From: an uncultured Niabella sp.
GTDB lineage: Bacteria > Bacteroidota > Bacteroidia > Chitinophagales > Chitinophagaceae
Assembly: GCA_934486785.1 (NCBI GenBank)
Contig: CAKSQK010000010.1
Location: forward strand, 1 to 64,000
DNA: 64,000 nucleotides
Reading direction: 5' to 3'
Below, piece by piece: positions 41,285-63,834 of the stretch. A model generated the notes under the pieces. That model was not told the DNA's origin. It saw only the letters and a program-made list of their open reading frames with translations, and made no database searches. Position 1 is the first letter of the stretch. Each line of letters starts with the position of its first letter. Position numbers and translations under genes: made by a program.

Positions 41285-41314
41285 AAAACAAAAGGCGCTC
41301 CCGATAGGGAACGC
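41285..41314 (-). terminator. Rho-independent terminator after the outer-membrane barrel gene
   Basis: Eight-pair GC-rich stem (41295-41302 with 41307-41314, one G-U), tetraloop, T-rich tail on the minus strand. Confidence 0.75.
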
Positions 41315-41343
41315 TTTTGCAAATTTTCAAAAGGATAATAAAT

Positions 41344-41982: not shown

Positions 41983-42131
41983 AGTTGAAATTTTAATGAT
42001 TAAATAAAAGATCTAATGGTTACTATAAATTTTTCAGCATATATGTAAATACCGTGCCAAAAAATGATAATAAAAACTTCAAAGTTTTTTTGCAAGCTTA
42101 CTATGTTATGGTATTCAATACCTTAAATAAT

Positions 42132-42159
42132 AATGGCCGGAACTGTAACTCCGGCCATT
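42132..42159 (-). terminator. Terminator hairpin after the von Willebrand gene
   Basis: Perfect 10-bp stem (42132-42141 with 42150-42159, GGCCGGA core), 8-base loop, T-rich but interrupted tail on the minus strand. Confidence 0.6.
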
Positions 42160-42179
42160 CAATGATTTATGCAACAATT

Positions 42180-44102: not shown

Positions 44103-44268
44103 AACAAATTTTTTAGATGTGATATTTTAAGGATGCCGGCGTATAGAAAATTACACACGGGAGTTTAGGGAGCTTTGGCTTTATACCTATCGCTGATTGC
44201 TTATTGCTTATTTAATGCTTATTTTGTATCGGCTACTGATATGATTTTTTATCGCAGCGCTATAATAT

Positions 44269-47197: not shown

Positions 47198-47200
47198 TTT

Positions 47201-47845: not shown

Positions 47846-47918
47846 AATTGCAGTTTAACTTTAACTGCGAAAATAGCAACTTGAGCACAAACCATTCAAA
47901 CAAAGCCAAATTCTGCCC

Positions 47919-48539: not shown

Positions 48540-48584
48540 AGGCATTTTTCATCTTATTAATTTACATTTACCAAAAACAAAAAT

Positions 48585-49745
48585 ATGAGTACAACCAAGT
48601 TAAGAATGGGTATGATTGGCGGCGGTAAAGACTCATTTATTGGCGCGGTTCACCGCAATGCCATTAATATGGATGGCCTGATAGAACTTTGCTGCGGCGC
48701 GCTAAGTGTTGACCCCGAAACTGCCATAACATCAGGGAAAATGCTGTTTTTGCCCGAAGAACGCATTTACACGAACTATGAAGAAATGATCAAAAAAGAA
48801 AGTGAGATGCCTGCGGATCAACGCATTCATTTTATTACAATCGTCACACCCAACTTTGCACATTTTGCCCCCGCCATGATGGCGTTGGACCATGGCTTTC
48901 ATGTGGTGATTGAAAAACCAATGACCTTTTCGCTTGAAGAAGCCAAACTATTAAAACAAAAAGTAGAAGAAACCGGCCTGATGCTTTGCCTCACCCACAC
49001 GTATACAGGTTATCCGATGATCAAACAGGCGCGCAAAATGATCGCGGATGGCGTTTTTGGTAACATCAGAAAAGTGTTTGTTGAATATCCGCAGGGTTGG
49101 CTGAGTAAACTTTCAGAACGTGAAGGAAACGCCCAGGCCGCATGGAGAACAGACCCCACAAAAAGTGGAAAGGCTGGGGCCATTGGCGATATTGGCACAC
49201 ATGCCGCCAACCTTGCCGAATACGTGACCGGCCAGGAAATAACGCAATTATGCGCCGATGTGAACATTGTAGTGCCTGAGCGCCTGCTGGACGATGACGG
49301 GGCCGTTCTTTTAAAATTTGATAAAGGTGCAAGCGGCGTACTTATAGCCAGCCAGGTAGCTGCCGGTGAAGAAAACGCGCTGAAAATAAAAGTGTATGGA
49401 GAAAACGGCGGCATTGAATGGCACCAGATGGAGCCCAACACCCTGCTTGTAAAATGGTACGATCAGCCGGCACAGGTGTACCGGGCGGGCAATGGTTATC
49501 TTGACGAAGCAGCGAAAAAGAATTGCCGAACACCTGGTGGCCACCCCGAAGGATACCTGGAAGCTTTTGCTAATATTTACAGAAATTTTGCCTGGGCTTT
49601 AAATGCCCGGCTAAATGGTGATGAGGCCAACACGGGCGATTATGATTTCCCCACCGTGGATGATGGTGTGAGAGGTATGGCATTTATTGAAAACGTGATT
49701 GCCAGCGGCCAAAGCGATAAAAAGTGGTGGGATTATGTGATTTAG
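48585..49745 (+). CDS. Gfo/Idh/MocA-family oxidoreductase
   Basis: 386 residues. An N-terminal Rossmann NAD(P)-binding domain (MGMIGGGKDSFIGAVHR) includes the family motif EKPMTFSLEEA; the larger C-terminal domain has 'GDIGTHAANLAEYVTGQ', which supplies a catalytic His. The family interconverts sugars or inositols with their keto forms. The substrate is unknown. The gene ends before a bidirectional-looking terminator. Confidence 0.88.
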   Translation: MSTTKLRMGMIGGGKDSFIGAVHRNAINMDGLIELCCGALSVDPETAITSGKMLFLPEERIYTNYEEMIKKESEMPADQRIHFITIVTPNFAHFAPAMMALDHGFHVVIEKPMTFSLEEAKLLKQKVEETGLMLCLTHTYTGYPMIKQARKMIADGVFGNIRKVFVEYPQGWLSKLSEREGNAQAAWRTDPTKSGKAGAIGDIGTHAANLAEYVTGQEITQLCADVNIVVPERLLDDDGAVLLKFDKGASGVLIASQVAAGEENALKIKVYGENGGIEWHQMEPNTLLVKWYDQPAQVYRAGNGYLDEAAKKNCRTPGGHPEGYLEAFANIYRNFAWALNARLNGDEANTGDYDFPTVDDGVRGMAFIENVIASGQSDKKWWDYVI

Positions 49746-49753
49746 AAATATAC

Positions 49754-49787
49754 AAAAAAAGCTATACTGTTGCTAGTATAGCTTTCA
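49754..49787 (-). terminator. Terminator between the Gfo/Idh and ABC-F genes
   Basis: Perfect 10-bp stem (49759-49768 with 49775-49784), 6-base loop, preceded by seven A on the plus strand, so on the minus strand it ends in a T run. It may act in both directions. Confidence 0.75.
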
Positions 49788-49806
49788 TTACTTTCTTCCT
49801 ACAGCA

Positions 49807-51432
49807 TTATTGATACATTTCCTCTCTCAGCGCTTTTACTCTTTCATCATCCAGGTATTCATCAAAGGTAGTCAGCCTGTCAATAATACCTTTAGGGGTC
49901 AGTTCAATCACGCGGTTGGCCACTGTTTGCATAAACGTATGGTCGTGGCTGGTGAGTAATACAATTCCGTTGTAGTTGATGCACTGCTCGTTAAAGCTTT
50001 GAATACTTTCCAGGTCAAGGTGGTTGGTAGGCTGGTCAAGAACAATGCAGTTGGGGCTTTGCAGCATCATTTTACTAATCATGCAGCGCACTTTTTCACC
50101 ACCGCTCAGCACCGTGGTTTTCTTCATTACATCTTCACCACTAAACAGCATTTTGCCTAAAAACCCACGCAAAAATGGCTCATCCACATCTGTAACGTGT
50201 GGCGGCACATACTGCCGCAACCAGTCCATCAGGTTCAGGTCTTTTGTAAAATACTCATTGTTTTCAACCGGCAGGTAAGCAGTTGTAACTGTTGTTCCCC
50301 ACTCGTATTTTCCGCTTACAGCCTGTGCATCACTATTAATGATATTAAAGAAACTGGTTACGGCCAGTGGGTTGCGGCTGATGAAAGCAATTTTATCTCC
50401 TTTGTTTACCGTAAAAGATACCTGATCAAAAAGTACGCGGTCCTCAATTTGAGATTTGAGCTGCTCCACATTCAGTATCTGGTTGCCCACTTCGCGCAGC
50501 GGTTGAAAAATGATACCCGGATATTTGCGATAGCTGGGCTCAATTTCTTCTATCACCAGTTTTTCCAAAGCTTTTTTACGGCTGGTGGCCTGCTTACTTT
50601 TTGAGGCATTGGCGCTAAAGCGTGCAATAAAGTCCAAAAGGTCTTTACGCTTTTCTTCCATTTTCTTGTTCTTGTCAGCAATCTGCCTTGCCATCAGTTG
50701 CGAGCTTTCGTACCAGAAAGAATAGTTACCGGTAAAAATCTTGATCTTTTGACGGTCTACGTCTGCCACGTGCGTGCACACAGCATCTAAAAAGTGACGG
50801 TCGTGGCTCACCACCAATACAATGTTTTCATAATCTGCCAGGAAGTTTTCAAGCCATCCAATGGTTTCAATATCCAGGCCGTTGGTAGGTTCGTCTAATA
50901 AAAGTATATCAGGATTGCCAAACAGGGCCTGCGCCAAAAGCACACGCACTTTCATGTTGCTTGGGATATCCTTCATCAGCACCTGGTGCATTTCATCGTG
51001 CACACCCAGGCCGTTTAAAAATGCTGCTGCATCGCTTTCGCTTTCGTAGCCGCCCATTTCACCATATTCGGCTTCCAGGTGGCTGGCTTCCATATAATCT
51101 TCTTCGGTAGCTTCGGGGTTGGCGTAAATGGCATCACGCTTTTGCATGGTTTCCCACATTTTTTTGTGGCCCATCAGCACGGTATTTAAAACCGTTTCGT
51201 TGTCAAATTCAAAATGGTTTTGCTTCAATACCGCCATTCTTTCCCCGGGCGTAATGGTTACTGTGCCTTTATTAGGTTCAATTTCCCCGCTAAGTATTTT
51301 TAAAAAAGTAGATTTTCCGGCCCCGTTGGCGCCAATGACGCCGTAACAATTGCCTTTTGTGAAGTTGAGGTTCACATCTTCAAATAAAACACGTTTGCCG
51401 TAGGCCAGCTTAAGGTCTCTAACACTGATCAT
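49807..51432 (-). CDS. ABC-F family ATPase
   Basis: 541 residues with two ABC domains in one chain and no membrane segments. Walker A 1 is GANGAGKST; the first domain's Walker B region is 'DILLLDEPTNGLD'; a linker rich in Lys follows (KKMEEKRKDLLDF ... SKSKQATSRKKALEKL); the second domain has signature LSGGEKVR and 'CIVLDQPTNHLDLES'. The second nucleotide site lacks a normal Walker A (KIAFISRNPLAVTS). ABC-F proteins act on the ribosome (EttA/YbiT group) or confer antibiotic protection; housekeeping seems more likely here. A TACCTTTG -7 element lies upstream. Confidence 0.9.
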   Translation of the reverse strand: MISVRDLKLAYGKRVLFEDVNLNFTKGNCYGVIGANGAGKSTFLKILSGEIEPNKGTVTITPGERMAVLKQNHFEFDNETVLNTVLMGHKKMWETMQKRDAIYANPEATEEDYMEASHLEAEYGEMGGYESESDAAAFLNGLGVHDEMHQVLMKDIPSNMKVRVLLAQALFGNPDILLLDEPTNGLDIETIGWLENFLADYENIVLVVSHDRHFLDAVCTHVADVDRQKIKIFTGNYSFWYESSQLMARQIADKNKKMEEKRKDLLDFIARFSANASKSKQATSRKKALEKLVIEEIEPSYRKYPGIIFQPLREVGNQILNVEQLKSQIEDRVLFDQVSFTVNKGDKIAFISRNPLAVTSFFNIINSDAQAVSGKYEWGTTVTTAYLPVENNEYFTKDLNLMDWLRQYVPPHVTDVDEPFLRGFLGKMLFSGEDVMKKTTVLSGGEKVRCMISKMMLQSPNCIVLDQPTNHLDLESIQSFNEQCINYNGIVLLTSHDHTFMQTVANRVIELTPKGIIDRLTTFDEYLDDERVKALREEMYQ

Positions 51433-51473
51433 TGATTCTGATTTATAAAAATTTGGTGATTTTTTAAGAGCCG

Positions 51474-51481
51474 CAAAGGTA
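51474..51481 (-). promoter_or_regulatory. Probable -7 promoter element of the ABC-F gene
   Basis: TACCTTTG on the minus strand matches TAnnTTTG, about 41 bp before the ATG at 51432; no good -33 box. Confidence 0.4.
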
Positions 51482-51615
51482 CGGAATTATTTGCGCCCGG
51501 CAGTAAAGCTTCATGCCTGTTGCAAAAGAATAACAATTTGACAGAATATAAAAGGATTGCCCGCCGGGGATAAATGGCGGCATTAAAAGAAGGTTTTCAA
51601 TCAGACTTAGATTGT

Positions 51616-53007
51616 TTATTGTACCACGGGCCCACCCTTTTCCTTCCACTCCTTCATGCCGCCGGAATAGTTTTTTACATTCTCAAAACCATATTTGCGC
51701 AGCAGCGAATAAGCAATGGCAGACCGGTCGCCAGACTGGCAATACACAACCACTTGCCTGTCTTTATCAATTTTTGAAAGATGGTCCGGAAGCGTTCCTA
51801 CAAAAACATGCGCTGCTCCCTGCACATGGCCGGCTTTGTATTCGCTGGCGCCACGCACATCTACCAACTGCACGTCTTCTTTTCCTAAATAATTTTTAAA
51901 AACTTCAATATTGATCACGTCCGAAGTTTGCAATTCAAGCCCCATAGCCGAAATGTCAGATATATATCCATGAACCCGATCCAGTCCAATGCGCATGAGC
52001 TTACGTGTTATGTCTTCCACCTGATCCTCATTAACAACAATGATGAATGCTTCATCATAATCCAATAACCAGCCGGCCCAGGTGGAGAATGAATTGTTGT
52101 TTTGTATATTGATGCTGCCGGGAATAAATCCCTTTTCAAATTCAGTTTTTACACGCGTGTCAATCACTTTCATGCCTTCATGATAGGCTTTTAAAAATTC
52201 TTCTTTCAACAGCTTTTTATGCTTGGGCACAGACAGCAGCAATGGCCGTTCTTCTTTGTTAAGTTGCTTCATCCTGGCAAAATATTTTGGCGGCTCCGGC
52301 TGGTCTTCTAAAAGATTTTTTACAAACCCTTTTTCATTATCCTGATACTGAAATGCCCAGTTGCGTATTTTTTCGTAACCTACGGTGGAACTGTGCACCG
52401 CGCCCAAAGCCTTGCCACAGGCCGATCCTGCCCCATGGCCCGACCATACCTGCACATAATCGGGCAGCGCTTCAAACTTTTTTAACGATTGAAACATTTG
52501 CCTGGCACCGCTTTCCATGGTACCGGAAATACCAGCGGCTTTTTCCAAAAGATCAGGCCGCCCGATATCGCCAACAAAAACAAAATCGCCTGTTAAGATC
52601 ATAGCGGGCTTGTCGGTTGCAGGATGGTCAGTTATAATAAAACTGATGCTTTCGGGTGTATGCCCCGGCGTGTGCAGCACGGTTAAAGTAAGGTTGCCTA
52701 CGTTTATCACATCGCCATCTTTCAGTCCCACGTGAGGAAATTGGTACTGCCAGTCTTCGCCACCTTCATCAGACAAATACAACGTTGCACCTGTAAGTGC
52801 GGCTAGCTCCCGCGAGCCTGAAAGAAAATCTGCGTGTATATGCGTTTCGGTAATATGCGTGATGCGCAGGTTGTTCTTCCTGGCAATTTCGATGTAAGTA
52901 TCCACATCTCTTTTGGCATCCACTACAATGGCTTCTCCTGTAGCCTGGCAACCTGTTAAATAACTTCCCTGCGCCAAACTATTGTCATAAATGTGCTCAA
53001 AAAACAT
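51616..53007 (-). CDS. Persulfide dioxygenase-like MBL hydrolase fused to two rhodanese domains
   Basis: 463 residues. The N-terminal metallo-beta-lactamase domain (about 1-240) has HIHADF, LHTPGHTPES, LTGDFVFVGDIGRPDL and a late GHG motif, the pattern of ETHE1-type persulfide dioxygenases. Two rhodanese domains follow (about 265-350 and 365-463). Only the second has a catalytic cysteine (VVYCQSGDRSA); the first has VVNEDQ at that point and is probably structural. The protein likely oxidises glutathione- or bacillithiol-type persulfides in sulfide detoxification. Confidence 0.88.
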   Translation of the reverse strand: MFFEHIYDNSLAQGSYLTGCQATGEAIVVDAKRDVDTYIEIARKNNLRITHITETHIHADFLSGSRELAALTGATLYLSDEGGEDWQYQFPHVGLKDGDVINVGNLTLTVLHTPGHTPESISFIITDHPATDKPAMILTGDFVFVGDIGRPDLLEKAAGISGTMESGARQMFQSLKKFEALPDYVQVWSGHGAGSACGKALGAVHSSTVGYEKIRNWAFQYQDNEKGFVKNLLEDQPEPPKYFARMKQLNKEERPLLLSVPKHKKLLKEEFLKAYHEGMKVIDTRVKTEFEKGFIPGSINIQNNNSFSTWAGWLLDYDEAFIIVVNEDQVEDITRKLMRIGLDRVHGYISDISAMGLELQTSDVINIEVFKNYLGKEDVQLVDVRGASEYKAGHVQGAAHVFVGTLPDHLSKIDKDRQVVVYCQSGDRSAIAYSLLRKYGFENVKNYSGGMKEWKEKGGPVVQ

Positions 53008-53121
53008 AACTCCTGATTTTTACAATTAAGGCAAAGATCAATTTTTTTCTTTGGCCAGGCTTACAAAAACAAACAATTTACAGGTAAGATGGTTTTGAAT
53101 CGCGCTTTCAGGATGGTATAC

Positions 53122-54228
53122 TTAGAAATCTTTTTGCAGGATAAACCCGTTATTACCGGAAGAAGTTTGAACCCGGTAATAGTTGCCGCTAACGCCTAAA
53201 ACATGCACGGTATCTGTTCTGGCAATATTGCGGTAAGGCGCTCTTGATTCAGGCTGCTGCAAAAGCCTTATGGCTTTGCCGGTTTTAAATTTCTGCTGCG
53301 GAAGACCGGCTGATGGCAATTGAGCGCTGGCTGCTTTTTGCACAAAACCAATCGGATCAATAGCGCCATAAGGCCGGGCGTAAATACCCAGGTGCAAATG
53401 CGGCGGTGTGCTGATGGCGTTGCCCGTGTTGCCAATCGTGGCAATGGTATCGCCTGCCTTTACGCGGGCGCCCTGCTCAACAAGCTGTGTATCTAAATGT
53501 GCATAATAAACGCTCAGTGGCATGTCATTGGGCCTCATGAAAATAACGTTGCCGCCCAGGTTGTTTTGACCTACCCGGTGTACAATGCCATCAGCAACAG
53601 CAACAAGATAAGTGCCGCGCGGTGCAAAAATATCAATGCCTTCATGCCGCCTGGCACCGCCATCCCTGTTAGCGCCCCAATAGCTGCCAATGTTGGCATT
53701 CACGCCTTCCTGCACCGGCCATTGTAACAGTGGCTCCGATTCTATCATCACTTCATAATGGCCGGTATAGTTAGCCACTGGCTGAAGCCTGAGAATAAAG
53801 TCGCCGCCAAAATATGCGGCATGCTGAATGATATTTTTAGTAGTATCAGCTTCCACTACCGTATTAAAACCGCTGCTGTCTGCCTGCACCAGGTCTGCAA
53901 AAATTTTTTGAGCAGCATGATTGGTAATGCTGATATTGATTTGCCTGCCGGCGATGGTTGAGAAACGCAAACCTGTAGCCTGAAAACCTTTGAATGTACC
54001 TTTTTCGGCATAAGGGAACAACACCTGGTAAGGCGCGGACAATGACAGTTTTGCCGATGAATCCCACTGCATGGCCAGTGTATCGCTGATCTTTTTCAGC
54101 TTATCGAAATACGCCTCCCGCTGGGTTTTTAAATTGAAAATATTGCGCACCGAACATTTATTGTAAAGCACCACAATTGCACCCAACAATATCAGCACTA
54201 TAAACAAAGGCCCGATACTTCTTTTCAT
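53122..54228 (-). CDS. M23-family metallopeptidase (peptidoglycan endopeptidase-like)
   Basis: 368 residues. One N-terminal membrane or signal helix, then a region without recognisable family, an M23 domain (about 190-285) with HEGIDIFAPRGT (first His and Asp) and HLHLGIYARP (HxH), and a C-terminal SH3-like segment (TDTVHVLGVSGNYYRVQTSSGNNGFI). M23 enzymes cut peptidoglycan cross-bridges; the ligand set is complete, so it is probably active in the periplasm. Monocistronic. Confidence 0.88.
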   Translation of the reverse strand: MKRSIGPLFIVLILLGAIVVLYNKCSVRNIFNLKTQREAYFDKLKKISDTLAMQWDSSAKLSLSAPYQVLFPYAEKGTFKGFQATGLRFSTIAGRQINISITNHAAQKIFADLVQADSSGFNTVVEADTTKNIIQHAAYFGGDFILRLQPVANYTGHYEVMIESEPLLQWPVQEGVNANIGSYWGANRDGGARRHEGIDIFAPRGTYLVAVADGIVHRVGQNNLGGNVIFMRPNDMPLSVYYAHLDTQLVEQGARVKAGDTIATIGNTGNAISTPPHLHLGIYARPYGAIDPIGFVQKAASAQLPSAGLPQQKFKTGKAIRLLQQPESRAPYRNIARTDTVHVLGVSGNYYRVQTSSGNNGFILQKDF

Positions 54229-54591
54229 GATTTTTATTTTTTAACGGTTATATAAAACGCCAATCCACAGGTTTACGGGAATCATCCTGCATCACTCATC
54301 ATCACCTGTACACGAACCGCACTTTCAGTGTAATGGTTGTTGCAAAAAACTTTCCAAAATCAGGTAACGACTCCGCAAAAGTGCCGTAGGAATTACAGAA
54401 TAACGTTTATCCGTAGTAATTAATGGCCCCTTTATGTGGCCGCACCTAAAATGGCCGCGTATTTTTTATTTATATTGAATTGTGGTGAATGTTGCATATT
54501 TTGCAGTAGCCATGTTACTGCTGTAAGTGCATCATACCAAAGCTTATGAAACGAAAACGGCAGGGTGGTTAACTAATATAAATCTACAGAA
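54229..54591. other. Divergent intergenic region
   Basis: 363 bp between the M23 gene and the exported TldD-like gene. No supported ORF or RNA gene seen. Short GGCC-containing segments around 54424-54455 could form weak hairpins, but without a convincing stem and T run. Confidence 0.4.
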
Positions 54592-56265
54592 ATGACAACC
54601 TTGAAAAGGATAAAAGTATGGCTGCCTATGCTCCTGCTAACGTGTTTTTTACAATCAAATGCACAGGATCAGCTTTTTACTGTTTTAAAAGATGAATTGC
54701 AAAGAGAATTTGCGCAATTAAAAGCGGCAGACAGTAATTTGTACTACATCAGCTACCGGGTAGATGATATAACCACTTACCGTGTTACCAGTAGTTTTGG
54801 CGTGATCAACTCCATTGATTCCAGCCGGGTAAGGATCTTTTCACCTACCCTGCGCATTGGAAATTACCAGTTAGACAATACGCACGGAAGCATGTTTGGC
54901 CAGGTTCCTTCATCTTTACCTGTAGTAAATGATGCAGGACTGATCAAACTGGCCATTTGGAAAAGCACCGATGCGGCTTATAAAAATGCAGCCCAGTTGT
55001 ATGAAAAGATCTTAACCGATAAAAAAGTACGGGTTACTGAAGAAGACACGGCAGCCGATTTTTCATCAGCCCAAAAAGCCAGCTATTTTGATGCGCCGCT
55101 TCATTATGCAACCTTAAAACCGGATATTAAAAAACTGGCCACGCAACTGGCCGGGTACACTGCGCTGCTTAAACAAAACCCTGACCTGTTAACTGCATCC
55201 GGTGTGATTGAATATAAAATCACCCGCAAATATTTTGTTGATACCGATGGCTCCGCAATCATAGAGAACAGCACGGGCACATGGCAGTCAATCTCAGGCA
55301 ATACAAAAGCAGATGACGGTATGGATCTGCCGCAATACCTGATGTATTATGCATATCTTCCCAAAGACCTGCCATCGGCAGACAGCGTTCATAAAGATGT
55401 GCTGAACATGAGCGCCAAGCTCAGCGCCTTGCGCCAATCAAAAATCGCCGATCCGTTTGTAGGGCCTGCCATTCTCTCCGGCCGTGCAGCAGGGGTTTTC
55501 TTTCACGAAATTTTTGGCCACCGCCTTGAAGGCAAGAGAATGAAGAGCCAATACGATGGGCAAACTTTTAAAACAAGGCTGGGAACAAGCGTGCTTCCGT
55601 CGTTTTTAAGTATTACCATGGACCCCACCATTAAAAGAATTGAGGATACTGATGTAAACGGGTTTTACCGCTTTGATGATGAAGGCGTAAAAGCCGAAAA
55701 AGTAAACGTGGTAGAGAACGGCATTCTTAAAAACTTTTTAATGACGCGTACACCCATCAATGGTGTTTCAGGCTCAAACGGGCATGCCCGCACAGCCCCC
55801 GGCGGCGTGCCTGAAAGCAGGCAGAGCAACCTTGTGGTAACTCCTAAAAACACAAAAACAGATGCAGAGCTGCGCCAGCTTTTAATTGCCGAGGCCAAAA
55901 AACAGGGCAAGGAATATGGCTATCTTTTTCAAAATGTGCAGGGAGGTTTTACCAGTACCGGGCGTACCAATCCCAATGCATTTAATGTGCTGCCGATAGA
56001 AGTCTATAAAATTTTTATTGACGGCAGGCCGGACGAACTCGTTCGCGGTGTAGACCTTATAGGCACTCCGCTGTCCATGTTCAACCGCATTATTGCCAGC
56101 GGTAACAAGGTGGAAGTTTTCAACGGCATGTGCGGCGCGGGTTCGGGCTGGGTGCCCGTGTCGGCCTCATCACCGGCTATTTTTGTAGATGTGATCGAAA
56201 CGCAAAAGAAAAGTAAATCGAACGACCGCCTGCCGGTTTTGCCACGGCCTGATCTGGACAAATAA
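54592..56265 (+). CDS. Exported TldD/PmbA-family metalloprotease (catalytic member)
   Basis: 557 residues with an N-terminal signal peptide (LPMLLLTCFLQSNAQ), unusual because E. coli TldD is cytoplasmic. The zinc motif HEIFGH (about 305-310, FFHEIFGHRLEGKRM) and the C-terminal 'CGAGSGWVPVSASSPAIFVD' region resemble TldD. TldD/TldE heterodimers degrade unfolded small peptides and mature microcins. The next gene, 49 bp downstream, is a paralogue without the zinc motif, as expected for a TldE-like partner. Confidence 0.88.
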   Translation: MTTLKRIKVWLPMLLLTCFLQSNAQDQLFTVLKDELQREFAQLKAADSNLYYISYRVDDITTYRVTSSFGVINSIDSSRVRIFSPTLRIGNYQLDNTHGSMFGQVPSSLPVVNDAGLIKLAIWKSTDAAYKNAAQLYEKILTDKKVRVTEEDTAADFSSAQKASYFDAPLHYATLKPDIKKLATQLAGYTALLKQNPDLLTASGVIEYKITRKYFVDTDGSAIIENSTGTWQSISGNTKADDGMDLPQYLMYYAYLPKDLPSADSVHKDVLNMSAKLSALRQSKIADPFVGPAILSGRAAGVFFHEIFGHRLEGKRMKSQYDGQTFKTRLGTSVLPSFLSITMDPTIKRIEDTDVNGFYRFDDEGVKAEKVNVVENGILKNFLMTRTPINGVSGSNGHARTAPGGVPESRQSNLVVTPKNTKTDAELRQLLIAEAKKQGKEYGYLFQNVQGGFTSTGRTNPNAFNVLPIEVYKIFIDGRPDELVRGVDLIGTPLSMFNRIIASGNKVEVFNGMCGAGSGWVPVSASSPAIFVDVIETQKKSKSNDRLPVLPRPDLDK

Positions 56266-56314
56266 GCAGCTTAACACAGAGTACATTCTTCTTAAAAGTC
56301 TAACAACAATTATA

Positions 56315-57997
56315 ATGTTGAAAAAAATATCAATACCCCTGTTTCTTTTTTTGCTGAGTTCTTTTTTAAGCAACGCGCAGCCATTAAAAGATAATTTTTA
56401 TGTAAAAGTTTTAAGCCAGGAACTGAACCGCAACATGCAGCGCCTTCACCTTCCCGAACTTTCAAAACCTTTTTTAATTTCATACCGGCTGCGCAATGGT
56501 TATTCGCATAACATACGGGCAGAGCGTGGCCACATTACCAGCCTGCTGAAAGAACCATCGAATAACAAAGTTGCCGTTGTAAAACTGCTGGTGGGAGATT
56601 ATCACCGCAATTTTGATCATATGCAGTATGGCGGATTTTCAATGAATTTGCCTGATGAAGACAATGCTGATGAAATTCGCAGGTTGTTATGGCTGGAAAC
56701 TGACAGGGCTTACAAGGCCACCGCGCAGCAATACAATGCCACCATGGCCAGCTTGAAACGTGTGAATGTGGACAAAAAAGAGCTGGAGCTGGATGATCTT
56801 TCAAAAATAACGCCCGTGGTGAAAGACTTTGGCGCTATGGCGCCGCTAAAGCCAGACCAGCAACACTGGGAGGCTATTTTAAAAGAACTTTCATTGCTCT
56901 TTACAAAACACCCGGAACTGACCACTTCTTACACACAGGTCAATTTCAGCAGTTATGAAGACTACCTGGTGACCAGCGAAGGAACAATCACGCGGCAACC
57001 TGCGCAATCTGTTTCATTCACCGCGTATGCATCTGCCAATGATGAGCAAGGAAACACTTTTAACGACAGCTATACTTTCTATGCAAAAAATATTTCAGAA
57101 CTTCCTTCACAAGAAGTTTTAAAAAATGAAATACTGAACATTATTGAAACGATCAAAAATGCAAGAACTGCCAAAAAATTTGAGAATGCTTACCTGGGCC
57201 CCGTGCTGTTTATGAACGATGCGGCGCCTGCTTTGATGAGCAATCTTTTTGGTTCAAGCCTGATCGTTCGGCGCAAATCCATTCTGGGATATTCTTCTTT
57301 TGGAGCCACCGATTATGAAGACAAGCTGGGGCAGAAATTGGTAGCCGCCGATCTTAGCGTGACGGCATTGCCCAAACTCGTTTCGTTTAACGGCATTTCT
57401 ACAACAGGCTCTTTTCAAATTGATGATGAAGGCGTAGAACCACCAGATTCGCTGGCGCTGATCAAAAATGGTATTTTAACATCTTTATTGAACGGCAGAG
57501 TGCCTACGCAAAAGTTCCCGCGGTCACAGGGCTTTGTCAGGTCATTTAGCGGGAGGGCTTATAACCCCGGCGTGCTAAGGATACAGTCAGCCAACACAAC
57601 AGTTTCCGATTCGATGAAACAGCGCCTCATTAAAATTGCAAAAGAAGAAGGCCTGCCGTATGCCTATATTGTAAAAGACAGGGATTATACAACGGCGGAT
57701 CTTTATAAAGTAGATGTAAAAACAGCACAGGAAGAATTGGTAACTGCCAACCGTATTGCAAATTTCAACATACGCAGCATGAGGCGTTTTGTTACCGCAT
57801 CCGACAAACAGGTTTTATACAACACACCTACCCTTAGCATTATTACGCCCGAAAGTTTTATAATAAATGAAGTAGAGATTGAAAAACAGGATCAAACGGT
57901 AAAACCCAAACCCATCATTGTTTCTAATCCTTTGCTGGATAGTGAAACCACGGCTGTTAAAACATCTGCAACTAAGAAAAGAAGAAACAGAAAATAA
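56315..57997 (+). CDS. Exported TldD/PmbA-family protein lacking the zinc motif (TldE-like partner)
   Basis: 560 residues, with a signal peptide ending near LSNAQ. It aligns along its length with the preceding gene product, but at the metal site the motif HEIFGH is replaced by SNLFGS (about 308), so it cannot bind zinc in the same way. This mirrors TldE/PmbA, the non-catalytic half of the TldD-TldE complex. The C-terminus is Lys/Arg-rich (SATKKRRNRK). Function inferred as partner subunit in the envelope. Confidence 0.85.
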   Translation: MLKKISIPLFLFLLSSFLSNAQPLKDNFYVKVLSQELNRNMQRLHLPELSKPFLISYRLRNGYSHNIRAERGHITSLLKEPSNNKVAVVKLLVGDYHRNFDHMQYGGFSMNLPDEDNADEIRRLLWLETDRAYKATAQQYNATMASLKRVNVDKKELELDDLSKITPVVKDFGAMAPLKPDQQHWEAILKELSLLFTKHPELTTSYTQVNFSSYEDYLVTSEGTITRQPAQSVSFTAYASANDEQGNTFNDSYTFYAKNISELPSQEVLKNEILNIIETIKNARTAKKFENAYLGPVLFMNDAAPALMSNLFGSSLIVRRKSILGYSSFGATDYEDKLGQKLVAADLSVTALPKLVSFNGISTTGSFQIDDEGVEPPDSLALIKNGILTSLLNGRVPTQKFPRSQGFVRSFSGRAYNPGVLRIQSANTTVSDSMKQRLIKIAKEEGLPYAYIVKDRDYTTADLYKVDVKTAQEELVTANRIANFNIRSMRRFVTASDKQVLYNTPTLSIITPESFIINEVEIEKQDQTVKPKPIIVSNPLLDSETTAVKTSATKKRRNRK

Positions 57998-58028
57998 AAA
58001 AGCCGAACCAAAAATATTTGATCCGGCT
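57991..58028 (-). terminator. Rho-independent terminator after the DUF6515-like gene
   Basis: Ten-pair stem (58001-58010 with 58019-58028, two G-U pairs on the minus strand) followed by a T-rich run on the minus strand. It reaches into the last codons of the convergent TldE-like gene. Confidence 0.65.
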
Positions 58029-58049
58029 GTTCTCATGTAATATATAACA

Positions 58050-58901
58050 CTAATCCTCTCTTGCTTTTATCACCTCGTAAACGGTTTTGCCGCTTTCCAA
58101 AACTTCTTTGTACCGTGTTCCGCTTGGTGATTCATATTGTGTTTCTCCGCCCACTTTTATGGTTTTTGAATTGCGGGGCAGATTTTCAAACCGGTCTCCC
58201 ACCTGCGGACCTACGCTGCCATACACTTCGTCAGTAGCTGTAGCGGCCGGGCGATTGCCTGCGCGGGCTTCTGCTTCATTTGCATTTCTCACAATAATTT
58301 CTTCACTATCGTTAGGCCTGCGGCGCTGCGAATCATACCGGCCTTCATCATACTCGTCCTCATAATTGCCATCACGGCTGTCTGCCCTGCGGCGCAATGC
58401 CTCGTCTGTATTCAGGCGGCCCTCTTTTCCCACAATGATGTATAGATCATCATCGCTCATGTAATAATTTCCGTTGTGCTCGTAATAGATCTGCCCGTTG
58501 ATTACGCGCTTGCGGGCGCCGGACGGAAGCCGCTCCAAACTGGCGCCTAACGGTGGCTCTACTATTTCATAGCCATCACCTCTTTCTCTTTCACGGTAGT
58601 AAGTATTGCCGCGGTAATAATAAGTAACACCGCCATAATATACCCTGCGGGCACCCGGCGGCAAACTATGCACCCTGCTGCCCAGCACAATAGGAGGCAA
58701 CATAACAGAAACTCCAACGCCAGGTCCGCCATAATAACCGCCCCAGCGGCCCATGCCAAACACACCGCCAATACCTACCGACACGCGGGGGCCGCCATAA
58801 TATGGTCTTGATGGATAACGCCTCCATTGGGCATGAACATCTGAAACCACAAAGAGTGTGGCTAAAAATACAGCCGCACCCAGTATAAAATTTCTTTTCA
58901 T
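58050..58901 (-). CDS. Exported DUF6515-like protein
   Basis: 283 residues from the ATG at 58901 (MKRNFILGAAVFLATLF...HAQW), which gives a clean signal peptide; the in-frame extension to 59003 does not. A Gly/Tyr/Arg-rich stretch is followed by three similar motifs of the form 'LPxGARxVxxGGxxYYxxxxxYY' (about 75-100, 120-150 and 255-280), the DUF6515 pattern. An Arg/Asp/Glu-rich linker separates the last two. Probably a periplasmic or outer-membrane-associated protein. Function unknown. Confidence 0.75.
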   Translation of the reverse strand: MKRNFILGAAVFLATLFVVSDVHAQWRRYPSRPYYGGPRVSVGIGGVFGMGRWGGYYGGPGVGVSVMLPPIVLGSRVHSLPPGARRVYYGGVTYYYRGNTYYRERERGDGYEIVEPPLGASLERLPSGARKRVINGQIYYEHNGNYYMSDDDLYIIVGKEGRLNTDEALRRRADSRDGNYEDEYDEGRYDSQRRRPNDSEEIIVRNANEAEARAGNRPAATATDEVYGSVGPQVGDRFENLPRNSKTIKVGGETQYESPSGTRYKEVLESGKTVYEVIKARED

Positions 58902-58990: not shown

Positions 58991-59395
58991 ATGCTTGCAA
59001 CACAAAAGTATCAGCAGCGGAAGGGCATCGGAAAACGTGGCACTGCCATGCTAATCATTTTTACACAGGGGTTTAAAAATACGCACAACTACCGTCAGCT
59101 CATCAGTTTTGCAGGCTTAAGCCCAACAGAATACGCCAGCGGAAGCAGTATTAAAGGAAACGGCAGAATTTATAAAAAAGGTGGTAAGGCCATGCGTGAT
59201 GTACTGTATATGTGTGCTATGAATGCCAGGCAAACCAACCCTGCCTGCCAGGCTCTTTATGATCGGCTCAAAGCAAACGGAAAAACCGGAAAACAAGCCT
59301 TAATAGCGGTAATGAAATAGCTTCTCAAACAGGCGTTTGCCGTAGCTAAAAATGGCACCCTTTACCAACCGAATTATTGTTCTGTAAAACCATAA
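58991..59395 (+). pseudogene. IS110-family transposase remnant (C-terminal part, with internal stop)
   Basis: The first 109 codons encode the C-terminal Transposase_20 region of IS110 proteins (GIGKRGTAMLI, FAGLSPTEYASGSSIKGNGRI, RDVLYMCAMNA). The N-terminal DEDD catalytic half is absent. A TAG at 59318-59320 interrupts the frame, but the next 24 codons still encode the typical IS110 tail (LLKQAFAVAKNG ... YQPNY) up to TAA at 59393-59395. The element is thus both truncated and nonsense-mutated. Upstream homology fades before about 59009. It lies at the edge of the accessory cassette. Confidence 0.82.
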
Positions 59396-59486
59396 AATTA
59401 TTTGGATTTATGCACAGTTCATGTTATCAGCTGCCCTTCTTTCAGTCGGTTTGGATTGTCGTGTCGGGTTGTCGTGGTGCGTTGGC

Positions 59487-59552
59487 TTGGTAGCTCTTTT
59501 GCAATTTTAGCTTTGTGCGGCTGGTTTGTGGGAATTGCAAATGTGCTACCAA
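59487..59552. repeat. Long imperfect inverted repeat (hairpin)
   Basis: Left arm 59487-59506 and right arm 59533-59552, 20 bases each with 18 pairing, separated by 26 G/T-rich bases. Outer halves TTGGTAGC / GCTACCAA and inner halves TGCAATT / AATTGCA pair perfectly; the two mismatches lie between them. There is no T-run after it, so it is not an obvious terminator. Set in non-coding DNA between the IS110 remnant and the cassette. Confidence 0.6.
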
Positions 59553-59576
59553 ATGCGTGAGCTGTCTTGTGTTGTC

Positions 59577-59626
59577 TGCCCCACTATTGCCCAACCATTG
59601 CCCCACTTGCCCCATTATTGCCCAAC
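59577..59626. repeat. Two 19-bp direct repeats, 31-bp period
   Basis: Copies at 59577-59595 and 59608-59626 differ at one base (TGCCCCA[C/T]TATTGCCCAAC). The second copy contains the last codons of the AlbA_2 gene. A related C-rich stretch lies between them. Confidence 0.6.
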
Positions 59627-60946
59627 TATTTTATAGTAAATTCCTGCTCCCGAAGTACCTGTTTTTGTCAAGATTTTAAACTTGTCTGCCAATTCAGTTA
59701 GTTCGGTTGTCGCTGTTCGTTTAGAGATGTCGTTCAATGTTTGATAATCGCTGTTCGTGATTTTCCCTTTGTCTTTTGCATACAAAACCGCTTTCACTTG
59801 TCTGTCGTTAAGTCCAAGTGTCTGCAAGTATTCTGTATAATAAATGTCTTTTCTGAACACAACCCAAAAGTCTGAACTTTCGGCAATGTAGGTCGGTTTT
59901 GGAAGTCCTTCGGCTACACACAATTCATTCATTTTGCTGATACCTCGTCCCCAAGATTCTACATAACCACTACGAAAAAACGTGTTTGCAATGTCAGGAT
60001 TGAAAGGTCGTGATGAATGGCTTTTCAAAAGGTTGCTGACTGTCCAATTTTCGGGTAAATGTCCTTCGTTCCAAATCATTATTTTGTCTTTGTAAATTCT
60101 GATTTGAATAGGTGTCAAGCCCGAATAATCTTTGTGAGCAATCGCATTTAGCAAGGCTTCACGAACAGCTTCTTTCGGATATTCGTAAGTTTCAATGCGA
60201 TTAATTCCGTTTTCATAACTAACAATCGCTTTGATGTATTTTGTAAAAAGTATATCAAGCCTTTTTTCAATTTGCTCAAACAAATTTCCGTGAACTTCAT
60301 CTTGGAAAATTAAGTCTGCTTCGTTTTCAAAATATCCGATTTTGATGTAAGCACCCGTTACAAATTTTTCGGGTTTCGGGTGGAATAACAACAAAGCGGC
60401 ACGTTTTAGATATTTGCCTTCTGTCAATTCCAAATTTTCTAAAAGTTGTTCGTTGGTGTCATTTACACTTTCTTCATCAAGGCGTTTACTCCTTATGCCA
60501 CGCTTTTTGAAAAAATCAAATGTTTCTTGCTTCAAATCCGCTACAGAAACATTTGGAATAGGAACACCGTCCCAACGTTTCCCTTTTTTCTGTAAAAGAA
60601 ATTTGTCCAAAGCTGCACCTTTCAATTCTTGTTTGGTGCTCCCGCTTCTGTAATGATATTGTCCTTTGTAGCTTATTCCGTTTGGATAAGGCTCTACGAC
60701 AATTTCCAAATAGTCGCCTTGCTTTGTTTCTTTCAAATTCATATCAACCAAAATTCCCAAAACATCACGCACTTTATTGGGGATTTCTTCCAATAACCTT
60801 TTGGCTTCATCAACTCCAACAATATTTCCGTTATCGTCTTTCCCGATGAAAATAGTGCCTCCGTTGGCATTTGCAAAACCGCAAATCCATTTCAAGTATT
60901 CATCTCTCCAAGTGCTTTTGTATTCTATGTTTTGAGTTTCGGGCAT
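59615..60946 (-). CDS. AlbA_2 / HATPase transcriptional-regulator-like ATP-binding protein
   Basis: 443 residues. The N-terminal AlbA_2 (Schlafen-like) domain (about 5-125) starts with 'IEYKSTWRDEYLKWICGFANANGGTIFIG'. A central region leads to an HATPase_c_4 domain (about 250-355) with 'EAVREALLNAIAHKDYS' and 'GRGISKMNEL'. A winged-helix-like C-terminus (about 375-443, LNDRQVKAVLYAKDKGKITNSDYQTL) completes the usual architecture. Such proteins are common on mobile islands and are thought to bind nucleic acid. It is the last gene of the cassette operon, 15 bp after the methyltransferase stop, so it may be its regulator or an effector; this is inferred. Coding GC is lower than in the flanking chromosome. 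Confidence 0.85.
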   Translation of the reverse strand: MPETQNIEYKSTWRDEYLKWICGFANANGGTIFIGKDDNGNIVGVDEAKRLLEEIPNKVRDVLGILVDMNLKETKQGDYLEIVVEPYPNGISYKGQYHYRSGSTKQELKGAALDKFLLQKKGKRWDGVPIPNVSVADLKQETFDFFKKRGIRSKRLDEESVNDTNEQLLENLELTEGKYLKRAALLLFHPKPEKFVTGAYIKIGYFENEADLIFQDEVHGNLFEQIEKRLDILFTKYIKAIVSYENGINRIETYEYPKEAVREALLNAIAHKDYSGLTPIQIRIYKDKIMIWNEGHLPENWTVSNLLKSHSSRPFNPDIANTFFRSGYVESWGRGISKMNELCVAEGLPKPTYIAESSDFWVVFRKDIYYTEYLQTLGLNDRQVKAVLYAKDKGKITNSDYQTLNDISKRTATTELTELADKFKILTKTGTSGAGIYYKIVGQ

Positions 60947-60961
60947 TATTTAATTATTGTT

Positions 60962-61705
60962 TTATCCAATAAAATATTTTGTACTTGCTTCAACAAAATC
61001 AAAGTCCAATCTATTAACTTCATCGTTGTCTGCATACTTTTCAAATGGGTTTATATCACTTAAAAAAATAACTCTATCCGTAGCCGTTGCTTTACCTTTT
61101 GAATCTGCCCATATTCGAGTAGTCTTGTCAGTATCTGATATTGCATCATTGATACACCAAACATTTTTAAATAATTTTTCTTCCCGTATCATTAAAGCAA
61201 ATTCTCTTGCCAATGGAATAACGCTGGTTTTTGATTTTGCAACATCTCCAATTACAAAAACAGCAACCCCGTCTTTCTTTAGAAATTTTTTAAGTTCAAT
61301 AACAACTTCTTTTGAAAAATTAATCCATTCTTCTAAATTCAAATCATCATCTAATTCCTCCGAAACTTTCAATGGGTCTTCATCTAAAAACCAACTTCTA
61401 ATCCAGTTTTGTTTAGCATAATTTACAATTCCCAAATAAGGAGGAGAAGTCAAAATCAAACTTACCTTTTTGTGAAATGGTTTAAGTTCATCAATTTCGG
61501 ATAGTTTTTTTGCATCAGCTTTGACAACTACTCCTGATTGTTTTAGTCCGCTATGTTTTTTGTAAAGCCTTTCTGTTTTTTCTCTTAAAATATTAAACAT
61601 ATCGTGAAATATCCTGTTCAGATTATTGGTCTGAACAAACTTTCTCACATAATCGGGCGACATTCTAAAAGTATCTGAATGATATGTTGTATTTAAAATA
61701 TTCAT
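60962..61705 (-). CDS. DNA methyltransferase (TSPPY type), apparently lacking SAM motif I
   Basis: 247 residues from the ATG at 61705, whose ATGA overlaps the nuclease stop by 4 bp; an alternative ATG at 61720 is possible. The catalytic motif TSPPY lies at 86-90 in 'VSLILTSPPYLGIVNYAKQNW', a context typical of N4-cytosine or N6-adenine methyltransferases. 'DGVAVFVIGDVAKSKTSVIPLA' and 'TDRVIFL' follow. No FxGxG SAM-binding motif I is visible before or after it, although related full-length enzymes carry it N-terminally. The sequence could be an incomplete protein, a split subunit whose partner is elsewhere, or a divergent motif. Confidence 0.78.
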   Translation of the reverse strand: MNILNTTYHSDTFRMSPDYVRKFVQTNNLNRIFHDMFNILREKTERLYKKHSGLKQSGVVVKADAKKLSEIDELKPFHKKVSLILTSPPYLGIVNYAKQNWIRSWFLDEDPLKVSEELDDDLNLEEWINFSKEVVIELKKFLKKDGVAVFVIGDVAKSKTSVIPLAREFALMIREEKLFKNVWCINDAISDTDKTTRIWADSKGKATATDRVIFLSDINPFEKYADNDEVNRLDFDFVEASTKYFIG

Positions 61706-62550
61706 TTTACTAATCTCCATTTATCGTTTTCAAGAATAATCAAACCATTCTTTTTAAGGTGTTGCTGTGAAGTTCGGACTGCGTGTTTCCACTTTTTACC
61801 AAAACTTTTTCCATCAATAATTCTATCAACCATATTATCACATAAATCAGGATGAATATTTTGAATTTCATTATGAATTTCTTCTGTTTGTAAACCTTGT
61901 GGATTTTTATCTAAAACATAGAGAATGGTTTTTGAAAAGACATTATGAACCGCTCCAACATTATTCAACCTGTCTTTAACCAATTCCTTTTGAGTCGATT
62001 CTATAAGGCTTATTATTTCTGTGTTAAGACTGTTTTCAAGAGTGGGTGCAGTTCTTGTGATTTGACTTGAAATACTTATTAAAGATTTTAATGTGTCGTA
62101 TTCTATTAATGAACCAAGTTGACAATACTGATTTATATCTTGATATATTTTTTGGGTTTCATTCTCTTGATTTATTTGGATTCCATACTCAAAGTTTGAA
62201 AACAACCCACCATTTGTCAAATTTCCAGATGTGATAATGGACTTTTTTTTGTCTGATATGTAAACCTTAGCGTGAAGTTTAGGCAAATGCCAAATTTTAA
62301 GATTTTTTATTTCTAAATTGAGTTGCTCAAAAACTTTAGGGTTGTTTGAGCCTTGAATAATATTTATGGGTGAAAAATTTGTAAGGAATGTGAAGTTCCC
62401 ATTTTCTTTCAGATTATTATTGATTTTTTTCAGAATAAAGTCAACGCCATTTTGAGTAACAAAAGGTGATGAAATAAAGAAATCACTTCTCGATTCATTT
62501 ATTAATACACCTAATTTTTGATGCCAATTTTTATGGAGTTGCTCAATCAT
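61702..62550 (-). CDS. PLD-fold nuclease-like protein with C-terminal winged helix
   Basis: 282 residues from the ATG at 62550 (MIEQLHKNWH), 2 bp after the GHKL gene's stop. A single phospholipase-D-type active site is visible: LHAKVYISD (His93, Lys95) then SGNLTNGGL (Ser108, Asn110). This is like PLD-fold restriction endonucleases, which dimerise to build one active site. The C-terminus (about 205-282, ILYVLDKNPQGLQTEEIHNEI ... KWKHAVRTSQQHLKKNGLI) looks like the winged-helix region of Mrr-type restriction proteins. It is probably the nuclease of the cassette. Confidence 0.78.
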   Translation of the reverse strand: MIEQLHKNWHQKLGVLINESRSDFFISSPFVTQNGVDFILKKINNNLKENGNFTFLTNFSPINIIQGSNNPKVFEQLNLEIKNLKIWHLPKLHAKVYISDKKKSIITSGNLTNGGLFSNFEYGIQINQENETQKIYQDINQYCQLGSLIEYDTLKSLISISSQITRTAPTLENSLNTEIISLIESTQKELVKDRLNNVGAVHNVFSKTILYVLDKNPQGLQTEEIHNEIQNIHPDLCDNMVDRIIDGKSFGKKWKHAVRTSQQHLKKNGLIILENDKWRLVK

Positions 62551-62552
62551 TT

Positions 62553-63584
62553 TTATGCTGCTATTGTGTGAGGGGTAGAAGTGGAAATCCTTTTTTGAGG
62601 AACGAAAAAAAGATTGCAAGGAATAGCCCGACCCGAAGTGAAACGGAGGGACACACCCAAATCAATTCTATTCAAATTATTCCCTAAAACGCTTCTATTC
62701 TCAATTTTCCCTTTGTTTAAGTCTTTTTTTCTTTGACCAGAAATTGTAAATGGTAAAATTGTGTCAAACATATTGTGATGTGCCAAATACCATAATGATG
62801 AGGTTGGTCCGGTAAGTTTTGCTGTGTACTTACCAATGTCCATTCCAATATGTTTAATCAATGTTCCTGCTTCAAATTCATTTTCAGGAACTGTAAGGCT
62901 TAAAGGGTTATTATTGGCTCCAACACAGTATTCGTACCAGCCAAGTTTTCTTAACCCTAATTCTCCGTCATTGAATCTAACAATTGTAAAAGATACTTCA
63001 TCTCCTTTTTTTAAGATTTTGTTTGGTCTGGAAATTATTACGGTAAAGGTGTTAAAAGACAAAGCAGTTGAACCACCTTGACCATAAGCTCCAAGTTGAT
63101 GAAGTTTGTCAATTTTATTATTGTCATTTAGGCTCAAAATCGTTTTACCAAATTCATCACCTTTAATTCCAGTTCCAAAATCTCTGATTTCAACGGTTGG
63201 GAAATCTTCACGTTCGGAATCTTTTAAAGTAATGACTGTTTGACGTGCCAAATCTTGGATTTTTTTGTTTGAAGCGTCTTTTATGTTTCTTAATTTACCT
63301 TCTGCTAAATCAAACCATTTTTGTGCAGCCATTCTTGGGGAATCAATATCTTTTGGTTGCCCTTCTTGATGCCATTTTAAATCCAATATGGAATCAATAG
63401 AGTTTGTAATTCTTTCAACTAAACCCGCAGCTGGGTCAGTACCCATATTGATAGTTGATTGGTTGTTTTGTCTATCTCCGACTGCTCTCCAATTTATATC
63501 GTAATCATCCGTTAATATTTCTAAAATATCGGTTACTTCTTTGGCAGTAGTTGCGTTTAATAATTGTTGAAATATCTCGTTCAT
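62553..63584 (-). CDS. GHKL-type ATPase (MutL/MORC-like) of a restriction-type cassette
   Basis: 343 residues from the ATG at 63584 (MNEIFQQLL). Bergerat-fold ATP-binding motifs are present: N box 'LVERITNSIDS' (Glu58, Asn61), G1 'IRDFGTGIKGDEF' (D135-x-G-x-G139) and G2 'LGAYGQGGSTALSF' (about 164-177). Proteins of this kind accompany methyltransferases and nucleases in restriction-like operons and are related to MutL and eukaryotic MORC. The C-terminus ends abruptly at SGRAIP followed by a polar tail, so part of a longer family domain may be missing. ATPase function is inferred. Confidence 0.8.
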   Translation of the reverse strand: MNEIFQQLLNATTAKEVTDILEILTDDYDINWRAVGDRQNNQSTINMGTDPAAGLVERITNSIDSILDLKWHQEGQPKDIDSPRMAAQKWFDLAEGKLRNIKDASNKKIQDLARQTVITLKDSEREDFPTVEIRDFGTGIKGDEFGKTILSLNDNNKIDKLHQLGAYGQGGSTALSFNTFTVIISRPNKILKKGDEVSFTIVRFNDGELGLRKLGWYEYCVGANNNPLSLTVPENEFEAGTLIKHIGMDIGKYTAKLTGPTSSLWYLAHHNMFDTILPFTISGQRKKDLNKGKIENRSVLGNNLNRIDLGVSLRFTSGRAIPCNLFFVPQKRISTSTPHTIAA

Positions 63585-63597
63585 CTTTTTAATCTGA

Positions 63598-63834
63598 TTA
63601 AAACTTAAAGGTATTTTTGGTAGATTTTGAATTGGTTGTATAAACAAGTTCTATGCTTTTTACTTTTTCCTTTAAAGCTTTAAGCATTTTTGTTACATCT
63701 TCATCATCATAGTCATAGTTGTTTTTGTTAGCACATTTTGCTAAACTATCAAGTGTGTCAAGCACTTTTTGTACTCTTCTTCCAGCCACATTAGTGAATC
63801 GAACTCGCTTAATATTTTGATTACTTTTCGCCAT
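63598..63834 (-). CDS. Small basic protein at the head of the cassette operon
   Basis: 78 residues, Lys-rich, with a helical core (AGRRVQKVLDTLDSLAKCANKNNYDYDDEDVTKMLKALKEKV). No helix-turn-helix or known family recognised. It starts 13 bp upstream of the GHKL gene's ATG and is the first gene after the promoter, so it could be a regulator or a complex subunit; this is a guess from position. Confidence 0.65.
   Translation of the reverse strand: MAKSNQNIKRVRFTNVAGRRVQKVLDTLDSLAKCANKNNYDYDDEDVTKMLKALKEKVKSIELVYTTNSKSTKNTFKF

Follow-up and report, generated by a model that had tools for sequence, protein, structure and literature searches.

Replacement of the middle of a GHKL ATPase-methyltransferase operon by a Flavo-1 element and a predicted PLD nuclease gene

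The locus and its replaced middle

The 64-kb stretch analysed here (the window; positions are counted from its first letter) belongs to contig CAKSQK010000010.1 of an uncultured Niabella sp. (assembly GCA_934486785.1). Close to its end lie five open reading frames (ORFs) on the minus strand, at 63598-63834, 62553-63584, 61702-62550, 60962-61705 and 59615-60946. In this order they encode a 78-aa small protein, a fragment of a GHKL ATPase, an intact, predicted PLD/HKD nuclease, a fragment of a DNA methyltransferase and an SLFN_AlbA_2/HATPase_c_4 protein (AlbA_2 below). The original prediction, made from the sequence alone, took the five genes for one ATP-using, methylation-guided restriction system. 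Its layout was reproduced: with ATG starts the intergenic gaps are 13, 2, -4 and 15 bp, and the GC content of the genes (30.0, 33.9, 29.4, 30.5 and 37.5%, the second value measured at 62655-63584) is lower throughout than that of the flank (43.6% at 40000-58900). It had missed, however, that two of the five genes, those of the GHKL ATPase and the methyltransferase, are fragments. As in the database cluster P0001, the most likely start of the GHKL gene is the ATG at 63584; for the PLD gene it is the ATG at 62550, which gives 282 aa in agreement with P0056, rather than the TTG at 62619. The methyltransferase ORF begins at an ATG.

The GHKL fragment (62676-63584) comprises residues 1-303 of a family of about 757 aa and is 85-86% identical to the protein of L001, the closest fetched relative with an intact operon. 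Homology ends at VLGNN (family residues 299-303) and is followed by 40 unrelated codons and a stop (62553-62675). The fragment keeps ERITNSID, RDFGTGI and GAYGQGGSTAL, aligned with the relatives, which we take to be the N, G1 and G2 motifs of ATP binding; S5 and all later domains are absent. By our own reading of its predicted model, the intact protein has S5 at about 317-407 and helices at 419-476; a strand-rich domain (508-605) and, at the C-terminus, a mixed domain (623-757) follow. Among the Foldseek matches of this model (pLDDT 78.1) are Hsp90, GyrB, SMCHD1 and MORC3, with TM-scores that are low in every case when taken over the whole model. The GHKL label thus stands by alignment to full-length relatives and by their predicted fold, although the window protein itself gave no library match over the cut-off. 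The non-homologous tail reads through a Flavo-1 RNA element (RF01705, 62564-62637, plus strand, antisense to the operon; 45.6 bits, gathering cut-off 42); no other Rfam family exceeds its cut-off in the window. The stop codon of the tail lies 2 bp before the start of the PLD gene.

On the far side of the PLD gene, the methyltransferase ORF (247 aa, 60962-61705; N6_N4_Mtase, E 9e-9) resembles its family from 61672 downwards, i.e. from TFSMSPDYV, corresponding to residues 184-419 of the intact enzyme. From residue 187 (MSPDYV) on, the piece is identical at 233 of 233 positions to the intact 419-aa P0177, so that the break is likely recent. Motif IV (TSPPY) is retained at residue 86 of the 247-aa piece, whereas the S-adenosylmethionine-binding motif I (DPFSGRGTT, residue 55 of P0177) is absent, the fragment beginning only at 184. 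Two substitutions beside the junction, N16D and S19R, fall on columns conserved in 115 of 115 relatives. The same new N-terminus is found in P0176 (247 aa, 7 member sequences), which carries R51S and L90S at well-conserved sites, letters found in none of the 115 relatives. Hence, ATPase residues from about 304 on and methyltransferase residues 1 to about 183 have been replaced. Because motif I and S5 are gone, the window copy is likely dead as a restriction-modification system. As a neighbouring methylase or nuclease, the ATPase fragment has both, the nuclease intact and the methylase as a fragment.

The PLD protein (61702-62550; PLDc_2 over the cut-off, E 1.5e-8) is the intact member of this set. 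An alignment of 20 relatives has the H, K, G and N residues of an HKD-type active site invariant and a stretch near the C-terminus conserved; the C-terminal domain looks winged-helix-like by inspection. The structural model (pLDDT 87.7) has its best Foldseek match in SauUSI (E 2.9e-8, with a low TM-score of 0.43), followed by TrmBL2, NucT, Nuc and BfiI (TM-scores 0.3-0.45 to the model), and a profile search also finds SauUSI (E 5.5e-4). Comparison with the NgoFVII-type family PF09565 gave 22.0-22.3 bits, under the cut-off of 23.8. DISARM DrmC is the best PADLOC and NCBIfam name for the protein, yet at 36.4 bits against an equivalog cut-off of 133. By sequence and model, the protein can be assigned to the PLD/HKD nuclease superfamily as a predicted nuclease, in agreement with the kinship originally proposed; the PLD, methyltransferase and SLFN_AlbA_2/HATPase_c_4 labels are likewise upheld by library matches.

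The intact operon in relatives and its cassette setting

A scan of genome contigs with the window methyltransferase fragment gave 19 related loci, at which gene presence was judged by tblastn (E 1e-3) within the stretches fetched. The intact order is 78-aa protein, GHKL ATPase (about 750 aa) and methyltransferase (about 420 aa), in a row at 15 of the 19. With full-length queries, a full-length GHKL gene was found directly before the methyltransferase at 17 loci, and the methyltransferase match begins at residue 11 or earlier in 18. The 78-aa protein (63598-63834 in the window), which had been singled out as a distinguishing oddity, is an ordinary partner, present at 16 loci with 24-77% identity. 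The order of all five genes, whose conservation had been proposed as a check, occurs at none of the 19. Nor did AlbA_2 (443 aa, 59615-60946; Pfam match), thought to be the fifth gene of the system, give a tblastn match at any of them; its GC content of 37.5% is set apart from the 29-34% of genes 1-4, and it is likely an unrelated neighbour. The PLD gene was found at a single related locus, L016. This is a second case at the DNA level, with the 78-aa gene, GHKL residues 1-74, a PLD gene (51% identical to that of the window) and methyltransferase residues 277-419; the leader of its PLD gene, GCAATTGCTGCATAAAGATG, resembles that of the window, ACAATAGCAGCATAAAAATG.

At L003 (1-770), an internal deletion has left ~13 codons from the start and ~106 from the end of the GHKL gene next to a full methyltransferase gene, a further route of losing this ATPase. 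Downstream of the methyltransferase, eight of the 19 loci (L005, L008-L012, L014 and L015) carry a protein of 262-322 aa together with a second GHKL protein; four (L002, L006, L007 and L013) have a DUF1016/YhcG-type protein there. These types were assigned by inspection, except for Pfam runs on L002 and L008. At L008 (10720-13055) and similar loci, the former protein (~265 aa) has a PD-(D/E)xK look by eye, and in L008 it has no Pfam family over the cut-off; the second GHKL protein there has a weak PADLOC match only (MzaB, E 0.002). At L027, a distant GHKL protein (26%) is directly preceded by a protein related to the 78-aa one (41% over 70 aa), and such a partner may therefore belong to a wider GHKL family. 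PADLOC at E 0.01 gave no match for the 78-aa protein or the intact L008 GHKL protein, and for the intact L002 GHKL protein one weak, unrelated match only (Cas8e, E 0.006).

Restriction-modification operons with MORC and paraMORC ATPases were described by Iyer, Abhiman and Aravind in 2008 (PMC2292703, available in part), and the intact operon matches the kind described there; the species list includes Leeuwenhoekiella blandensis, the source of L010. The suggested kinship to MORC-type restriction-modification sets thus holds in the sense that the GHKL and methyltransferase genes derive from a conserved operon of the MORC/paraMORC kind. As there, a GHKL ATPase with an extension beyond S5 stands next to a methyltransferase with no helicase between them, and a 262-322-aa protein with a second GHKL protein may follow, as at the eight loci named above. 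Unlike these operons, the window has both the ATPase and the methyltransferase cut and a PLD gene between them. The available part of that paper mentions HKD domains fused to helicases, not the arrangement of the window. We infer the label paraMORC1 for the first GHKL protein, assigned without a profile.

In L001, two attC-like sites (3414-3544 and 7700-7838) flank the three genes, and the ends by which these sites face each other are complementary (GTTATGGGC / GCCCATAAC). Facing ends of neighbouring sites are also complementary in L062, L063 and, by eye, L061; in L064 they are not, at 4 of 5. At least 40 matches to the attC-like site were found in G001 (40 scored of 83 candidates), a Bacteroidota metagenome-assembled genome in which the sites have the same orientation on the five contigs with two matches listed and the intact operon is a multi-gene cassette. 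Most of 11 aligned copies have RYYYAAC...GTTRRRY-type ends. An IntI integrase over the NCBIfam cut-off occurs in one of the 14 operon genomes (G013) and not in G001. There are reports of integrons from Bacteroidota (PMC8618304 and PMC9668308, available in part). The operon thus resembles integron cassettes in lying, in L001, between two sites with matching ends, and differs in that the window retains only the first attC-like bases and in the rarity of the integrase.

In the window, the AlbA_2 gene is followed by a repeat (59422-59558, minus strand) like the one after the L001 methyltransferase gene (75% match). It comprises a hairpin and the first attC-like bases, where the IS110 remnant region begins; the upstream end of the cassette would lie beyond base 64000. 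This repeat is likely a cassette end. The IS110 remnant and repeats noted earlier at one side were confirmed, as the C-terminal part of a transposase (58991-59320, plus strand; Transposase_20, E 5.4e-18) and as short repeats with a 20-nt hairpin at 59487-59630. Some IS1111-family elements are known to target attC (PMC11187229, available in part). Within 58991-59434, the IS110-family remnant lies beside the attC-like start, as could be expected of attC-targeting members.

Recurrence of truncated ATPases

A protein database search gave 55 GHKL clusters, with proteins longer than 1.75 times the query outside the candidate set. Nine of them end in similar tails: P0001 (the window), P0002-P0004, P0006, P0017, P0019, P0021 and P0024. 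Tails were recognised by a shared reading frame, so that any cluster with its tail in a different frame, perhaps P0005, would escape notice; the common frame of the nine was dropped as evidence, since they were picked by it. In family residues, the cut points are about 303 (window), 453 (three clusters), about 454 (four) and 428 (one). Eight of the nine are thus cut at residue 428 or later, after S5, with the whole ATPase module kept.

The Rfam comparison covers the window tail; the others were compared as peptides with the Flavo-1 reading, with shuffled tails as control. A Flavo-1 origin is clear in five, weak in one and by tail likeness alone in three. P0002-P0004 scored 124-136 against the window Flavo-1 reading (shuffled at most 43), P0006 57 (at most 35) and P0017 a weak 48-51 (at most 45). 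A Flavo-1 copy of another genome, L085, which falls below the Rfam cut-off, encodes a peptide similar to the P0017 tail, and the assignment of P0019, P0021 and P0024 follows from their likeness to that same tail. When the tail label is placed on a tree built from residues 1-305 (44 rows), it requires at least six changes, six of them forced by well-supported branches; a tree built from residues 306-448 (40 rows) requires six, five of them forced. The tailed proteins group with intact relatives: P0001 with L001, P0002 with L002/L004, P0019/P0024 with L007, P0017 with L008/L009 and P0021 with L012. The trees suggest about six separate truncation events, if truncation cannot be undone.

To link tailed ATPases with PLD genes, contig sizes were compared between the GHKL clusters and the best 120 of 1373 PLD hits. 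Within that set, a contig of exactly equal size is listed for a PLD hit in five of the nine tailed clusters and none of the 46 untailed ones, where jittered sizes give 0.11 pairs on average. All five (P0006, P0017, P0019, P0021 and P0024) have the second tail type. For the window itself, the P0001 record lists a different contig from the PLD record. One further pair, the full methyltransferase P0229 and the PLD protein P0063 on equal 4059-base contigs, was dropped, as the sources differ. The two kinships disagree: identity of the window GHKL protein is 75% with P0006 and 49-50% with P0017, P0019 and P0021, whereas that of the window PLD protein is 51% with P0091, which has the contig size of P0006, and 78, 77 and 69% with P0069, P0071 and P0078. 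In the methyltransferases P0208, P0213 and P0222, the first ~44 residues are replaced by a common MVSGN N-terminus, with motif I kept.

Flavo-1 is a common Bacteroidota element whose function is described as still unclear in the available part of PMC9723704, which also reports it in either sense in Flavobacterium psychrophilum. Matches at E 1e-3 were found in nine of the 14 operon genomes (eight of them over the cut-off) and in none of 14 control genomes. They total at least 74, with at least 35 in G009 (Polaribacter, the genome of L011) and at least 14 in G001; the counts are lower bounds, up to 150 candidates per genome having been scored. At E 1e-15, five of 395 sampled genomes had a PLD relative (best 46%), and at E 1e-40 none of 395 and one of 396 (48%); no additional DNA example of a GHKL-PLD join was found among the sampled genomes. 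The window GHKL protein has relatives in 12 of 395 genomes of the phylum sample, three of them at 38% identity or more. Viral contigs gave no match for the PLD protein, the PLD alignment or the methyltransferase P0213, and one 28% relative for the GHKL alignment; on plasmids there was no PLD match and three methyltransferase relatives (26-33%).

A proposed effector swap and rival explanations

On balance we favour the following reading, which we hold to be probable. The middle of the operon was replaced by Flavo-1 and an intact PLD gene, which likely abolished methylation and ATP-driven action in the window copy, and in relatives the replacement would amount to a swap of effectors. In the less eroded forms, cut near residue 454, the separate PLD nuclease would take over as the cutting part and be gated by the 78-aa protein and the ATPase. 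In the window copy, cut to residue 303 and with S5 gone, most likely only the PLD enzyme would still be functional. Thus the less eroded relatives likely constitute systems of ATPase plus PLD nuclease, in which the two would act together, and the window copy is likely an eroded one. Two tailed pairs with the same cut differ on conserved columns (31% of columns) in 4 of 42 and 2 of 24 differences, and eight untailed pairs have 0-14% of their differences there, which weakly suggests constraint on the truncated proteins.

Several observations weigh against this reading. The window copy compared with L001 gives a similar 3 of 38 differences at conserved columns; since this copy is eroded, what the measure records is mostly the time that preceded the cut. 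The tailed pairs may have split before their cut. Junction DNA was read in two cases only, the window and L016, the others being protein tails with matching contig sizes, and L016 has no Flavo-1 over the Rfam cut-off. The tails of P0019, P0021 and P0024 score at best 42-46 against the Flavo-1 reading (shuffled at most 35-44), no clear margin. The changes counted on the trees could be too many if alleles have recombined. P0002-P0004, whose tails are most like that of the window, have no PLD contig match among the hits compared, and something other than a PLD gene may follow them. Of the 74 Flavo-1 matches, 30 were inspected together with flanks of up to ~1.5 kb, and none of these lies near a PLD, GHKL or methyltransferase gene. 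Six more distant PLD relatives (L033-L037 and L102, none above 48% identity) are surrounded by unrelated genes, with no relative of the GHKL or methyltransferase gene nearby as far as searched or seen. Finally, P0213, on a 12351-base contig like the tailed P0004, has a new N-terminus yet keeps motif I, and so the extent of the replacement is not always the same.

The most serious rival, unlikely though it is in our estimate, is that the PLD gene, often behind Flavo-1 and either selfish or passively captured, repeatedly lands in this operon and kills it, the remnants being debris. Such invasion would account for loss that varies around the same place (GHKL cut at 74, 303, 428 and ~454; methyltransferase from 184 or 277), for the dispersed, multi-copy nature of Flavo-1 in a genome such as G009, for PLD kinship departing from GHKL kinship and for the loss of the L003 GHKL gene by itself. 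However, eight of the nine tailed GHKL proteins stop after a complete ATPase module and not at random, the two same-cut pairs show constraint, and in both the window and L016 the PLD gene is the only ORF that separates the GHKL and methyltransferase genes, with no transposase or integrase seen there. The five-gene restriction system first proposed has tight spacing, a single strand, open frames and an intact PLD nuclease in its favour, but a methyltransferase without motif I, an ATPase without S5 and the absence of AlbA_2 and of the five-gene order from the related loci make it highly improbable as a working unit. Hardly better are the prospects of a minimised system, in which GHKL 1-303 would bind ATP and act as a switch, and the PLD protein would use the methyltransferase piece as its DNA-binding subunit. 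The frames have been kept open and P0176 has the same new N-terminus, but its R51S and L90S point to relaxed constraint and the catalytic parts are gone from both fragments.

That the assembly joined unrelated pieces, as a single window might suggest, is scarcely credible. The window GHKL cluster has four member sequences and a 10,524-base contig, the PLD cluster has two sequences on three contigs (the longest of 70,218 bases), P0176 repeats the methyltransferase junction in a separate record and L016 repeats the design with other breakpoints. Shuffling within a genome between intact and PLD forms was also considered and found no support: 13 of the 14 operon genomes have no match to the window PLD protein at E 1e-3, and in G013, the genome of L016, the missing GHKL part is absent and the missing methyltransferase part has only weak matches of 30-40%.

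An effector swap of this kind has parallels. In BREX, an HKD nuclease stands in place of LonP in 1030 of 2913 BrxL (PMC12839542, available in part), so that there, too, an HKD nuclease replaces another domain of a defence protein; the BREX case is a domain fusion, whereas the window has a separate gene joined at Flavo-1 and has lost part of the methyltransferase. VcSduA, a paraMORC3-like Shedu protein with an N-terminal GHKL domain, is alike in that this domain is proposed to control the nuclease domain in phage defence (available part of PMC12137116), and unlike in being one protein with a PD-(D/E)xK domain, where the window has a separate PLD nuclease. In the favoured reading, the window nuclease would differ from ATP-dependent PLD-type enzymes in that its ATPase is GHKL, not a helicase, and a separate protein; the set also shows no identified sequence-specificity domain. 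NgoAVII and CglI are such ATP-dependent PLD-type restriction enzymes. The likeness extends to SauUSI (PMC7913695, available in part) in that a PLD nuclease is expected to be driven by an ATPase.

A broader proposal, that Flavo-1 elements are repeated joining points at which the PLD gene captures paraMORC-type operons, on each occasion displacing the C-terminal domains of the ATPase and converting methylation-based defence into a new class of ATP-gated nuclease defence, is doubtful at present; if true, Flavo-1 would gain a role as a recombination element. The replacement itself seems to be new, being absent from titles and abstract openings in the literature searched, which covers few subscription journals or preprints. 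The analysis corrects an attractive misreading of the locus as a new five-gene defence system, and it shows an intact member of the operon within an array of integron-type cassettes. In one defence operon, a single section has apparently been exchanged several times, often for one nuclease family and at what seems to be one kind of RNA element. Recurrent replacement, if real, would be a repeated evolutionary move rather than one accident. It would give Flavo-1 a testable role, and if the GHKL-PLD pairs work, they would show a natural change of weapon in defence systems.

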